From NCBI GenBank assembly GCA_023666425.1, contig JAMPCA010000001.1, positions 70,216-134,215 of the forward strand: DNA of 64,000 nt. Direction: 5' to 3'. Shown piece by piece: positions 36,677-42,296 of this stretch (positions are counted from its first letter, which is position 1; the number at the start of each line of letters is the position of its first letter). Below the pieces are notes generated by a model. That model had not been told where the DNA came from and made no database searches. It saw only the letters and a program-made list of their open reading frames with translations. The DNA is from Muribaculaceae bacterium. Its GTDB lineage: Bacteria > Bacillota > Clostridia > Lachnospirales > Lachnospiraceae. The translations under genes were made by a program, and so were the position numbers.

Positions 36677-36969
36677 CGTGTAGCTCCTTTGTTTTAATAC
36701 TCAGGGCTGAGCAGAAAATCCGCTATGTGCATGGTCTTAATTCTCTCATAATTTCCACCTGCTAATCCATCCGCTCTGAGTTACGGTGGTGTTTACATAT
36801 CCGGCAATGAAGCACTTGAAAACCAGTCCCGAACCAGCCGCCCTGTTTTGACTTCTGCTTGTACAGTATAGCATTAAAAAGCTGAATTTTCAATCGTTCC
36901 GCTATTTTTATCCTCTTATCCGGGCAATACTATATAAATATGTATCGCAAGTGTCTTTCGTCCGCTTCA

Positions 36970-37008
36970 TTGACTTTTCGTCCATTATATGTCATAATAT
37001 GGACGAAA
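36970..37008 (+). promoter_or_regulatory. Fic gene promoter overlapped by a 33-bp palindrome
   Basis: TTGACT (36970-36975), 17-bp spacer, CATAAT (36993-36998). A near-perfect palindrome occupies 36976-37008: arms TTTCGTCCAT and ATGGACGAAA are perfect over 10 bp and the 13-bp centre has only two mismatched pairs. It covers the spacer, the -10 and the start site, so a bound dimer would block RNA polymerase. A further half site TTTCGTCC lies at about 36956. Confidence 0.8.
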
Positions 37009-37049
37009 GAAAGCAAAGATGGATGAACCTTTCAAGTAAGGATTTTCCC

Positions 37050-38117
37050 ATGAGAAATTTTGATTATACAAAACTGACAAATTATAAGTGGGACAGCGAG
37101 GTGCTTTCCTATGTTGCTAAAATACATGAATGCAAGGGCAGACAGGACTTGTTTGTGCGACAAAAGCCAATAGAGCTTAGCCGGCTGATTGAAGTCGCAA
37201 AAATCCAAAGTACCGAAGCGTCCAATAAAATTGAGGGTATCGTCACTACAAGTACCCGTATCCGGCAGTTAGTGGAAGAAAAAACCACACCGAGAAACCG
37301 GGACGAAAGCGAGATTTTAGGGTATCGGGATGTCCTGAACACCATTCACGAAAGCCATGACTATATTCCGGTAACACCGTCCTATATCCTTCAGCTTCAC
37401 AGAGATTTGTTAAAACACGCAGGTCTTTCCTATGGCGGTAATTTCAAGAATACGCAGAACTACATCAGCGAAACACGATCCGACGGAACGCAGATTGTAC
37501 GGTTTACCCCTCCTGCACCCTATGAAACGCCGGAGGCAGTCGAAAAAATCTGTAAAAGCTACAAACGGGCGGTGAACACGGAAGCGGTGGACGCTTTAAT
37601 TCTGATACCCGCCTTTATCTGTGATTTTCTCTGTATCCACCCCTTTAACAACGGCAACGGACGCATGAGCAGGCTTCTGACCTTGCTGCTGCTCTATCAG
37701 AACGGATATGAAGTCGGCAAGTATATCAGCATTGAGAAGCAGATTGAAAAAACAAAGGACGCCTATTACGATATGCTTGCACAGTCCGACATCGGCTGGC
37801 ATGAGGAAACCAACGAGCCAACACCGTTTATCAAGTATATGCTGCAAATGGTGCTTGCCTGCTATGTGGAATTTGAAGAGCGTGTCGGCATGATGAACGG
37901 GAAAGGTCGGGGAAGTACCGCCTATGATATAGTCAAAGCCTATATGATGGGCAGAATCGGAAAAATGACCGGAGCTGAAGTCATCGCAGCCTGTCCGAGC
38001 GTGGGACGAAGCGCAGCCCTCGGTGCGATCAAGAAACTGACCGAGGAGGGGCTTATCTTAAAATGCGGCTCAGGCAGAAGCACCTACTATGTCCGTGCCG
38101 ACGCTGTTGAGGAATAG
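37050..38117 (+). CDS. Fic family protein with C-terminal winged helix
   Basis: About 355 residues from MRNFDYTKLTNYKWDSEV (ATG at 37050, TAAGGA upstream; the frame is open further upstream). The catalytic motif HPFNNGNGRMSRL fits the active HPFx(D/N)GNGR pattern used to transfer AMP to target hydroxyls. An N-terminal inhibitory motif STEASNKIEG (S-xxx-E-G) marks it as a class II, self-inhibited Fic. The C-terminus (MTGAEVIAACPSVGRSAALG, IKKLTEEGLILKCGSGRST) reads as a winged helix. With the palindrome on its promoter, self-regulation is a reasonable inference. Targets unknown. Confidence 0.93.
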   Translation: MRNFDYTKLTNYKWDSEVLSYVAKIHECKGRQDLFVRQKPIELSRLIEVAKIQSTEASNKIEGIVTTSTRIRQLVEEKTTPRNRDESEILGYRDVLNTIHESHDYIPVTPSYILQLHRDLLKHAGLSYGGNFKNTQNYISETRSDGTQIVRFTPPAPYETPEAVEKICKSYKRAVNTEAVDALILIPAFICDFLCIHPFNNGNGRMSRLLTLLLLYQNGYEVGKYISIEKQIEKTKDAYYDMLAQSDIGWHEETNEPTPFIKYMLQMVLACYVEFEERVGMMNGKGRGSTAYDIVKAYMMGRIGKMTGAEVIAACPSVGRSAALGAIKKLTEEGLILKCGSGRSTYYVRADAVEE

Positions 38118-38608
38118 CAGACCTTTTCAACCATAATTCGGTAATTATTTCAGAAAAAGCTGTGCGAAACAATCATACCTTTTCAAAAATCCGCTCTATG
38201 TATGAATCCGTCAGATATATCATTCGCATAAAATACTGCTGCCGTCTTAAATGTAAACTATCCCGACACACAAAAAGACACCACTACTTATATCGCTATA
38301 AGCAATGATGTCTTATTTTTTTACTATATCAAAGCTCACCATTTGTCGTAACTCTGTCGTAAAACACAAATATAAACTTTCTAAACCGCTTGTAAATGCC
38401 CTATTTAAGCCATTTTACTTATCCAAGCTCTTCATCGTGGGGACGAAATCGGACAGATTGATATAGTTTACTAAAATGTCCCAATCTCTCGTATATTCTC
38501 CTTTTTTCACATTTCTCTACATCTAATTTTCCGCATTTGTCCGTACTGTTATGATGTAAATGATGTGGAATTTGATGTAGATGATGTAACTGCTTCTGTT
38601 TTCAAAAG
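38118..38608. other. Gene-free region downstream of fic
   Basis: No convincing coding frame. It is AT-rich and holds four TGATGT boxes at 38552, 38561, 38573 and 38582 (spacings 9, 12, 9). Two more TGATGTAA boxes occur near 40719 and 40730 on the far side of the integrase scar. It looks like decayed mobile-element DNA. Confidence 0.5.
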
Positions 38609-38649
38609 AGAAGTCCTGACATTCCCGATATGGGAACATCAGGACTTCT
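38609..38649. terminator. Long hairpin at the scar boundary
   Basis: Arms AGAAGTCCTGA and TCAGGACTTCT (38609-38619, 38639-38649) pair perfectly; inside, TTCCC and GGGAA pair again. T-rich bases follow on both strands, so it can end transcription either way, including from the PDDEXK gene. Confidence 0.7.
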
Positions 38650-38656
38650 TATGTTT

Positions 38657-38727
38657 TACTCATTTTTGAAATATAAGTCAAGACCTTCAAATTCGGAGCG
38701 TTTCAGCTCTTTTGTCACATCCGCATA
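38657..38727 (-). pseudogene. Detached 3' end of a tyrosine integrase (direct repeat, copy 1)
   Basis: 71 bp matching 40013-40083 at 69 positions, same orientation. On the minus strand it encodes ADVTKELKRSEFEGLDLYFK and the end of that protein, the last two dozen residues of an ICE/phage-type integrase, with nothing of the catalytic core upstream. It lies 21 bp after the PDDEXK gene stop. Confidence 0.88.
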
Positions 38728-38748
38728 TTACATATTGCTCTTTTTTAT

Positions 38749-39855
38749 TTATTCTTCATTTAATGCCCCTTTTCTCTCATTTTCCTGCTGTAAATAGAAC
38801 ATTGCTTTTTGTGTTTCAATTTCTGCCCTCAGTTCTTCATCCGTTGGCAGATAGAGTTTATATTTAGAAGCGAACAACTGCTCATTGCCATGAAGCACGG
38901 AATATCTCGCAATATCTTCATCCGTGTCGGAGCAGAGGACAATCCCGATTGTCGGATTATCTCCCTCGCTACGTTTCAGTTCGTCGTACATACGGATATA
39001 CATATCCATCTGTCCGACATCCTGATGAGAAATTTTTTCTGTTTTCAAATCAATCAGGACAAAGCATTTGAGGATATAGTTATAGAATACAAGGTCGATA
39101 TAATAATCTTGCTTTTCTGTGTGTATATGCTGCTGCCTTGCAACAAAAGCGTAGCCTTTGCCAAGCTCCATAAGAAACTTCTGTAAATTGGAAAGAATAC
39201 TTTTCTCAAGATCGCTCTCCGTAAAGTCAGTATTGGAGGATAGACCTAAGAACTCAGCAACAACCGGATTTTTAATAAATTCTAACTTATCTTCTTGATA
39301 TTCTGCCGTCAACTCCTGCATTTCCTGTTTGACAAGCTCTTTCTTCTGCGTCTGAAGCATACGGTAATAATACTGAGATGAAATATTCCTCTGTAATGTA
39401 CGCACACTCCAAGTCTGTTCCGAAGCTTCTCTCTCATACCATGCACGAGCTTGTTTGTCATTTACCTGCAAAAGAATACGATAATGCGTCCACGAAAGCA
39501 ACAGAGTTGATTTTCCACTCACTGAGTGGAAAATCTCAGGATACTCTTTATAGAACGAATAAAAGTTATACAAATTAGTTTTTGTATAGCCTTTTCCGTA
39601 CTCAGAAGTCAGTTCTTTAGCCAACTTGGCAATAATGTTTGCTCCATACTCTGCTCTGTCAGTCCCCTGAAATCCTTCCTCTGCAATACGATAACTAATA
39701 AGCCAGTTTCTCTGCACAAGCGCTGTATTAACTGCCTGATATGCCGCTTTTTGTGAGGACTCGATAATGGAACACATATCTTTAAGAATGTCATCGGTTT
39801 TTATAAAATTGCCCATAACATCATTTTGTCCTGAAGTAGTCAAGTTATTCTCCAT
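38749..39855 (-). CDS. PDDEXK nuclease domain protein (DUF1016, YhcG type)
   Basis: About 368 residues from MENNLTTSGQNDVMGNF (ATG at 39855, AAGGA upstream; an ATG at 39894 has no ribosome site). The N-terminal helical domain has YGKGYTKTNLYNFYSFYKEY and LLLSWTHYRILLQV, the DUF1016_N signature. The C-terminal nuclease domain has FVARQQHIHTEKQDYYIDLV and FVLIDLKTEKISHQD, giving the D-(E/D)xK acidic core. Such proteins are linked to restriction and mobile elements. It is flanked by 71-bp copies of an integrase end, so it was probably carried in. Confidence 0.93.
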   Translation of the reverse strand: MENNLTTSGQNDVMGNFIKTDDILKDMCSIIESSQKAAYQAVNTALVQRNWLISYRIAEEGFQGTDRAEYGANIIAKLAKELTSEYGKGYTKTNLYNFYSFYKEYPEIFHSVSGKSTLLLSWTHYRILLQVNDKQARAWYEREASEQTWSVRTLQRNISSQYYYRMLQTQKKELVKQEMQELTAEYQEDKLEFIKNPVVAEFLGLSSNTDFTESDLEKSILSNLQKFLMELGKGYAFVARQQHIHTEKQDYYIDLVFYNYILKCFVLIDLKTEKISHQDVGQMDMYIRMYDELKRSEGDNPTIGIVLCSDTDEDIARYSVLHGNEQLFASKYKLYLPTDEELRAEIETQKAMFYLQQENERKGALNEE

Positions 39856-40011
39856 AATCTGCTGATCCTTCCATATTATATTTTTCTTTAACATGCTAAT
39901 TTTAAACTCTGCGATTTATAAATACAAGACCAAATCCTTCAAAACAAACGGTACCTCCAAAATAATTTTTGGAAGTACCTTAATTAAATCATTTATTAAA
40001 TTTCAAATATT

Positions 40012-40215
40012 CTACTCATTTTTGAAATATAAGTCAAGACCTTCAAATTCGGAGCGTTTCAGCTCCTTTGTCACATCCGTATAGATATTGAGCGTGGTGG
40101 AAATGTCCTTATGCCCAAGAGCGTCCTGAATCACCTTCACATTCACTCCTGCCTCGCACATCCTTGTCGTGAAAGTATGGCGGAGCGAATGGCAGCTAAA
40201 ATGTGGAAGCAACAT
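40012..40215 (-). pseudogene. 5'-truncated tyrosine integrase, C-terminal part
   Basis: 67 codons: LPHFSCHSLRHTFTTRMCEA has the RHT box, LGHKDISTTLNIYTDVT the second histidine and the catalytic tyrosine (IYTDV), and the end is ELKRSEFEGLDLYFKNE. The N-terminal DNA-binding and first catalytic arginine regions are gone: at the 5' side it is joined in frame to the kinase-like gene at 40246. It cannot be an active recombinase as it stands. Confidence 0.9.
40013..40083. repeat. 71-bp direct repeat, copy 2
   Basis: Partner of 38657-38727 (69/71 identical). It is the natural 3' end of the integrase remnant. The two copies are 1356 bp apart and enclose only the PDDEXK gene. Confidence 0.9.
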
Positions 40216-40245: not shown

Positions 40246-40608
40246 TTATAATGTTTCTACGGATATGTTTGTGTCAACAAATACCATTTTCCCTTTGGTA
40301 CTCAACGTTTTCAGAATTTGTAACTCCAATATTTCACATTCCTTTGATACTCCTCTTATCCATGTTTCATATTCATCTGGTGTTCGCCTGATGAAATCGT
40401 GCCAATCCTGCAAATCTCTTGTATAGGTCAAGCACGGAAACTTGTCCCTATCTAATTCAGGCAATAACGTATTATGATAATTTTCTTCACAAGCAATACC
40501 ATTATACTTTTCAGCAAGTCGTTTTACCATCGTAGATTTTCCGGCATATGCAGTTCCATTTATAAAAAATGTATTTTCAAATCTCATTCTCTCTATCTCC
40601 TCAAACAT
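40246..40608 (-). pseudogene. P-loop kinase/AAA protein, truncated, fused in frame to integrase remnant
   Basis: 120 codons: ENTFFINGTAYAGKSTMVKR carries Walker A (GTAYAGKST), and KGKMVFVDTNISVETL is followed by TAA at 40246. Beyond the stop the same frame continues EISDYDHVLIML and then directly LPHFSCHSLRHT of the integrase. So the normal protein probably went on past the stop, and its C-terminus was replaced. Related small P-loop proteins act as nucleoside or shikimate kinase-like enzymes; this copy is likely dead. Confidence 0.7.
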
Positions 40609-40793
40609 CGATTTGTTTCATCCATCATTTTTGAAAATAGGCAATCCCATTATGAGACTGCCCATTCATTTTTAGAAAATATGCGATTTTTCCACCTCTG
40701 CACAAAATCCTGCATCGTTTGATGTAAGGTTGATGTAAAGTTGTAAGGTTTCTTGATTTTACGGTTTCGCAAACCCGCATAAATACTGGGTTT

Positions 40794-42296
40794 TTAGCCC
40801 TTTTCGTTCGGGAGGGACTTCATCGTCGGGAACAGTAGCACATCGCGTATCGCCGCGGAATCCGTCAGCAGCATCACCAGACGGTCGATGCCATAGCCAA
40901 TGCCCCCAGTGGGAGGCATACCAATCTCCAGCGCATTCAAAAAGTCCTCGTCCGTGTGGTTGGCCTCCTCGTCGCCCGCGGCGAAAGCCGCATCCTGCGC
41001 GGCAAAGCGCTCGCGCTGGTCGATGGGGTCGTTGAGCTCGGAATAGGCGTTACACATCTCCCACGTGTTGACGAAGAGTTCAAAGCGCTCCACCTTCCCC
41101 GGGTCAGAGGGCTTCTTCTTCGTCAGCGGAGAAATCGCAAGCGGGTGATCCATGATAAAGGTTGGCTGCACCAGCTCCTTCTCACAGTACTCCTCGAAAA
41201 AGAGATTGATAATATCTCCCTTCGTGTGGCGCTCCTCGTACTCGATGTGACGCTCCTTTGCCAGAGCCTTGGCCGCATCGTCGTCCGCCACCGTGTCAAA
41301 ATCAATGCCCGCATACTTCTGAATCGCCTCATTCATCGTCATGCGCGCAAAGGGTCTGCCAAGGTCGATCTCGATGCCGTTGTAAGTGATTTTGCTGCTG
41401 CCGCAGACCTTTTCCGCCAGATAGCGGAACATGCTCTCCGTCAGCTCCATCATTCCCTCGTAATCCGTATACGCCTGATACAGCTCCATCAGGGTAAACT
41501 CCGGGTTATGGCGGGTATCTACACCCTCATTGCGGAATACCCTGCCAATCTCATATACGCGCTCGAGGCCGCCGACGATCAGACGCTTTAAGTATAACTC
41601 CAAAGAGATGCGAAGCTTCACATCCTCATTCAATGCATTGTAATGCGTGTCAAAGGGTCTCGCCGCCGCACCGCCCGCATTGCTGACCAGCATCGGCGTC
41701 TCCACCTCCATGAAGCCTCTCTCATCAAGGAAATTCCGAATCTCCCTGATAATCTGGGAGCGCTTAAGAAACGTATTCTTTACCTCCGGATTCATAATCA
41801 GATCGACATACCTCTGGCGGTAGCGGGTATCTGTGTCTGTGAGTCCGTGGAACTTCTCCGGCAGAATCTGCAGGCTCTTGGAGAGCATGACGACAGACTC
41901 CGCATGAATGGAAATCTCGTCGGTCTTTGTCTTAAACACAAAGCCCCTCACGCCAAAGATATCGCCTACATCTGCGCGTTTGAAGTCCTTGTACGCCTCC
42001 TCGCCCAGATCGTCCCTTGTCACATAGACCTGAATGCTTCCCTTTAAATCCTGAATATTGCAGAAAGAAGCTTTCCCCATCACGCGCTTGAACATCATGC
42101 GCCCCGCAACAGAGACCTCCTTTCCCTCCAGTTCCTCAAAGTGCTCCTTCACATCCACGCTGTGATGCGTTACATCATACTTAGTGATGACAAAGGGATC
42201 TTTTCCATTGTCCTGCAATTCCTTCAGCTTCTCCCGGCGCACCTTCAAAAGCTGGTTGATATCCTGCTGCTGTCCGCCATTATTCTGCTCTGCCAT
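40794..42296 (-). CDS. lysS: Lysyl-tRNA synthetase, class II
   Basis: 500 residues. The N-terminal OB fold ([20 protein letters not shown]) binds the anticodon. The class II motifs are [20 protein letters not shown] (motif 1), [20 protein letters not shown] (motif 2) and [20 protein letters not shown] (motif 3). It charges tRNA-Lys. It lies 13 bp after greA, the usual greA-lysS pair of Lachnospiraceae. The gene stands directly beside the mobile-element scar but is intact. Confidence 0.98.

Follow-up and report, generated by a model that had tools for sequence, protein, structure and literature searches.

The window, the whole stretch of 64,000 nucleotides that was analysed, contains an intact gene for a DUF1016/YhcG nuclease between two 71-bp direct copies of an integrase 3' end. 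With a probability of about two thirds, this layout arose from two related elements that inserted in tandem at the 3' end of lysS and were then cut down by deletions, without any insertion of cargo at integrase 3' ends. The arrangement itself had been described correctly in the sequence-only reading, since repeat search and BLAST both confirmed copies equal at 69 of 71 bases (two mismatches) at 38657-38727 and 40013-40083, which start 1356 bp apart and enclose one DUF1016 gene only (38749-39894, minus strand). The wider repeat family around the 71-bp core comprises 82 nt (38646-38727 and 40002-40083, 93%), BLAST aligns the two tail copies over 77 bp at 94.8% with an E-value of about 1e-28, and a search of the whole own genome returned the 71-bp tail at these two positions only. 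The features of the region are:

36951-38117, plus strand: gene for a SoFic-like Fic-domain protein, cargo adjoining the array (protein family searches)
38118-38403: end of a further accreted element beyond the att, with TGTCGTAA repeats at 38342-38363 (86% over 244 bp to L189)
38404-38443: att, where the lysS 3' end recurs, with the core at 38430-38443 (direct repeat and match to a congener)
38553-38589: repeated GATGTAA motifs resembling arm-type sites, as in relatives (TTACATCATTTACATCA in L004)
38609-38649: hairpin 3' of the left tail, similar to an integrase terminator (inverted repeat)
38657-38727, minus strand: left tail copy, 71 bp, off the integrase coding sequence (native downstream context)
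38749-39894, minus strand: DUF1016/YhcG PDDEXK nuclease gene, 381 aa, intact (PADLOC PDC-S02)
39950-39979, minus strand: terminator-like hairpin in the interval from the right tail to DUF1016 (hairpin search)
40013-40083, minus strand: right tail copy, part of the integrase remnant
40012-40215, minus strand: integrase remnant, last 67 codons (profile and DNA homology)
40246-40608, minus strand: P-loop-type ORF, 120 aa, with a GKS motif (ORF; no family match in the family searches)
40610-40793: lysS-side end of an integrative element, 73-78% to lysS-adjoining element ends of L159/L178, L011, L006 and L007
about 40721-40744: arm-type repeats within this lysS-side end
40794-42296, minus strand: lysS, which provides the attachment site with its 3' end, the core being 40818-40831, CTTCATCGTCGGGA (congener comparison)

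The protein encoded between the tails shares the full-length two-domain build of the DUF1016/YhcG PDDEXK nucleases (PF17761 and PF06250), as DUF1016_N and YhcG_C are found with 132.6 and 181.9 bits, respectively, both above the cut-off, and PADLOC assigns it to PDC-S02 with 4e-135. Compared with this family the protein is ordinary, and the interest is confined to its neighbourhood. As a PADLOC candidate (PDC), it is a probable phage-defence nuclease. DUF1016 and the tail did not occur together in phages or plasmids, where DNA matches reached 60-80% only, and the two viral contigs with DUF1016 both lack the integrase tail. In titles and abstracts on DUF1016, nothing on such insertions was found.

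The ORF at 40012-40215 encodes the 67-aa C-terminus of a tyrosine integrase (Pfam Phage_integrase, 5e-16). Since the full relatives, the 432-aa integrases of L004 and L005, which have an excisionase-like gene upstream, match it at 82-83% DNA identity just up to about 40212, the integrase of the window is a remnant, of which 67 codons are left with the right copy and about 23 with the left copy. Detached or truncated integrase remnants are also present in L012 and L141, and such decay is therefore ordinary. Further detached or fused C-terminal remnants lie at L012:1501-1572 and L168:4793-5569, so that integrase tails often outlive their parent elements. The two tail copies are 97% identical, compared with about 86% for the next closest integrase over the same 71 bp, and they differ by one synonymous change and by IYADV in the left copy versus IYTDV; the former motif also occurs in the integrases of L141 and L189, the latter in that of L004. 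Such variation is natural among relatives, yet two changes are too few to decide the origin of the tails. The hairpins that follow the left and the right tail differ, which fits an origin from two elements. The integrase 3' end also contains an outward promoter-like sequence, at 40009-40037 (minus strand) in the window and at about 1678-1706 in L004, with the hexamers TTGACT-17-TAGAAT in the right copy and TTGACT..TATAAT in L004; going by these motifs, it could serve to express cargo located downstream or, once excision has occurred, genes on the other side of the att.

Regarding the claim that one copy is the natural end of the integrase and the other is detached, the right copy is indeed attached to integrase coding sequence, but the native downstream context belongs to the detached left copy. 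In 23 relatives, 122-321 bp separate the integrase stop from the lysS core CCCGACGATGAAG (190 bp in L004 and L005), and in the window the left tail is about 214 bp away from the core 38430-38443, with the hairpin and the GATGTAA repeats between. The interval 3' of the left tail resembles the native sequence between integrase and att in L004, L011 and L189, whereas the sequence 3' of the right tail gave no such match to native integrase-end sequence. The lysS core is present exactly twice in the window, at 40818-40831 and 38430-38443, and over 30 bp the copy at 38404-38443 shares 93% identity with the lysS end of the congener G401. Judged from these comparisons, the left tail lies in a native element-end context at the native distance, and the lysS core is the true att. 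Comparison sites without the insertion, which the sequence-only reading had suggested looking for, were found in L004, L005 and L189, each consisting of an integrase stop, 190-321 bp and the att core without cargo. Among them L189 is the closest available empty comparison site for the window, as there the beyond-att sequence (38118-38445) follows the att 321 bp past a complete integrase, with no DUF1016 between. In most congeners, lysS is directly followed by an element end with repeated motifs, and the gene is thus a hot spot for elements in this Lachnospiraceae-type genus, with DUF1016 and Fic as cargo. The lysS gene of some relatives runs into a C-terminal tRNA-binding (EMAPII-like) domain (L005:1719-2381, L059:3973-5904, L068:2889-4823), and insertion at the lysS core cuts this domain off lysS in L005.

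DUF1016 is found at lysS in other genomes as well. Among about 107 DUF1016 loci, lysS lies just upstream of DUF1016 in L059, L068 and L078, and in L086 integrase, lysS core and DUF1016 follow each other on one strand. At the DNA level, the DUF1016 gene of the window is also closest to those of L059 and L068 (81.6% and 79.6%, respectively). In the minimal locus L078, DUF1016 has arm-like repeats on either side and is enclosed by the att of a truncated lysS and a second att, with no integrase between the two att copies, and an integrase tail beside DUF1016 is absent at lysS in L078, L059 and L068. An element in L082, whose integrase is 82% identical to that of L004, carries DUF1016 at its far end about 4 kb upstream in the same orientation, together with LexA-like, ImmA-like, sigma-like and excisionase-like genes; the element of L189 has the same gene order, with DUF1016 not in view. 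Because it occurs in L059, L068, L078, L086 and L082, DUF1016 is a recurrent cargo of such elements and of the lysS hot spot. The proposed hot spot for defence-like genes is real in that DUF1016 is mobile cargo, but its site is the lysS 3' end and not the 3' ends of integrases.

Most likely, two related integrative elements inserted successively at the lysS 3' end, and the stretch from lysS to 38404 represents their decayed remains. Of the element adjoining lysS, the end that faces lysS and the 67 terminal codons of the integrase would be left, and of the second one DUF1016 and its integrase-side end, namely the last 71 bp of the integrase, the terminator, the arm-type repeats and the lysS att. 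In such elements DUF1016 would be carried close to the lysS-proximal end and in the orientation of the integrase, so that after tandem insertion it would lie shortly 3' of the integrase of the preceding element. The second element would then have lost the DNA that starts right behind DUF1016 and reaches into the final 71 bp of its own integrase; this deletion and the loss of the att between the two elements would account for the arrangement seen today, and DUF1016 was probably kept for its benefit as a defence nuclease. Several points count against this tandem origin. No att or arm repeats are recognisable in the 117 bp between the right tail and DUF1016, so that a further loss has to be assumed, and an intact tandem of two elements with DUF1016 between them was not found among the loci compared. 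Moreover, the 97% identity of the tails, compared with about 86% for the next integrase, would also fit a local duplication, and a similar layout recurs with a different integrase in L070.

In this locus of Claveliimonas monacensis, the integrase is intact (613 aa) and belongs to another subfamily, and DUF1016 begins 69 bp after it; the last 45 bp, around the stop codon of the integrase, have a second copy with 93% identity 166 bp beyond DUF1016, before an AbiEi-like gene. The detached tail encodes AKTMK, the family-typical end, and the attached one AKTLE. L070 was rejected as a clean target duplication around a single gene, since the 166 bp include coding sequence for the C-terminus of an AlbA_2-type protein, and the interval is, by its composition, best described as a mosaic of cargo remnants. 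The tails of L070 and the window share no sequence. Integrases related to that of L070 precede other cargo, which is Fic in L181 and L182 and other genes in L180. We compared about 146 tyrosine integrases, consisting of 79 random ones (up to 5 kb downstream) and 67 others: the random set gave one match, a tandem integrase, and among the others L070, a tandem integrase and a 20-bp match at chance level came up. L070 is therefore the only convincing non-tandem tail duplication among them, and a general hot spot at integrase 3' ends was discarded on this account. A degenerate protein-tail pattern recovered only known relatives in 397 genomes, and the Fic gene as cargo flanked by its own repeat was discarded too, with just a 19-bp match at chance level. 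The search for the tail duplicated around other genes, by which the first reading was to be judged, thus did yield a look-alike, so that the window does not stand without any other example, but the integrase of this look-alike is unrelated and its interval is a mosaic.

The sequence-only reading had assumed a single-gene cargo insertion that duplicates the integrase end, and it is indeed conceivable, but rather unlikely, that DUF1016 inserted alone just past the integrase stop and duplicated a 71-bp target, perhaps by staggered cuts of the nuclease itself. At a subset of loci DUF1016 lies between short duplications (40-114 bp) of neighbouring sequence, i.e., of a GTPase promoter in L069 (82 bp) and L074 (about 70 bp), of the 5' coding part of the same GTPase in L067 (41 bp), of the 3' region of a phosphotransferase in L117 (114 bp) and of the integrase 3' end in L070 (45 bp). 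Related genomes free of DUF1016 have one copy of the GTPase promoter, and flanking duplications accompany 7/63 DUF1016 genes versus 7/248 other ORFs. In addition, DUF1016 genes that are 96-97% alike lie in unrelated flanks with homology of only about 1.1 kb (L064/L061, L082/L075), and therefore the gene moves in very small pieces of about 1.1 kb. However, the ends of the shared piece vary from pair to pair, which argues against a defined element, the interval in L070 includes the AlbA_2-type fragment, and the DUF1016 genes of L067, L069 and L074 are related to each other and possibly not independent cases. As DUF1016 resides between lysS att sites without such duplications in L078, and at lysS without tails also in L059 and L068, two tandem elements with deletions explain the window better than an insertion at the integrase end.

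The more general idea that DUF1016 spreads as a bare gene duplicating 40-114 bp of its target, possibly in a homing-like way via the nuclease, with the window as one case, appears improbable; nevertheless, the mobility of DUF1016 as single-gene pieces of about 1.1 kb, some with target duplications, deserves separate attention. In L069:5882-7138, L074:5786-7127 and L067:4277-5694, DUF1016 is located directly upstream of a TetM-like GTPase gene, which most of the sampled family carry, between copies of its promoter or 5' coding sequence. In L117:5121-7164, an HTH gene and DUF1016 are directly followed by a second copy of 114 bp from the 3' part of a phosphotransferase-like gene. A 100-bp repeat (87%) that looks like an element end surrounds peroxiredoxin-like and AAA ATPase genes just past DUF1016 in L080 (7139-7237 and 9183-9281). 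L066:5809-11253 is an accreted defence array, in which DUF1016, a gene of the SEFIR type, a pair resembling AbiEi/AbiEii and one more gene are separated by a repeat of roughly 128 bp that is present four times and starts with the 5' end of a gene for a low-molecular-weight phosphatase. At first look this array is cassette-like, but given that the repeats open with the phosphatase 5' end, att-like accretion is more likely.

For the window, an improbable origin is also the capture of DUF1016 together with a homologous tail from a related element, by recombination in the tail and an illegitimate other joint or a circular intermediate. Natural allelic variation could explain the left tail, given the synonymous change and the IYADV variant known from L141 and L189, and the detached tail of L070 has the family-typical ..AKTMK end; however, two changes speak only faintly for capture, which moreover needs a donor joining DUF1016 to an integrase tail, and none was found. 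That the integrase 3' end is itself the site-specific att of a single-gene element, as had been suggested by analogy with gene 3' ends, is largely refuted and very improbable, since integrase 3' ends serve as flanking repeats in just two cases, the window and L070, whose tails are unrelated, the insert lacks a recombinase, no further non-tandem case exists among the about 146 integrases, and the att is the lysS core.

With tandem insertion at lysS as the preferred explanation, the region can be compared with known classes of elements. Like IMEs and ICEs that target lysS, it has lysS-derived att sites on both sides and an integrase, here as remnants only, about 120-320 bp from the att; a functional integrase and mobilisation genes are absent from it, with no relaxase seen among the ORFs, and the region is a decayed, not an active, element. 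In Streptococcus, three ICEs are described in the 3' part of lysS (PMC4701971), which have the lysS target, short direct repeats in its 3' part and a tyrosine integrase in common with the window elements, whereas the latter are of the Lachnospiraceae type, decayed, and associated with DUF1016 and Fic cargo. As in CIMEs, att sites are present and recombination and conjugation modules are absent or broken, L078 being a cleaner example. For the window repeat, which is integrase coding sequence, membership among integron gene cassettes is not claimed, and the remnant is similar to ICE integrases. For ICEs and IMEs of Streptococcus, CIMEs and the accretion of integrative elements in tandem at a single att site have been described (e.g. 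PMC7563491, PMC5704250), and with these arrays the window shares att-flanked segments without a complete integrase, tandem arrangement at one gene and decay by deletion. The difference is that the window elements have each been cut to almost one gene, and the integrase tails mimic a designed duplication. Most likely, the window thus represents interesting gene traffic and no new insertion mechanism: tandem accretion and decay can leave a one-gene defence-type remnant between clean direct repeats, which is easily mistaken for a dedicated mechanism of cargo insertion.
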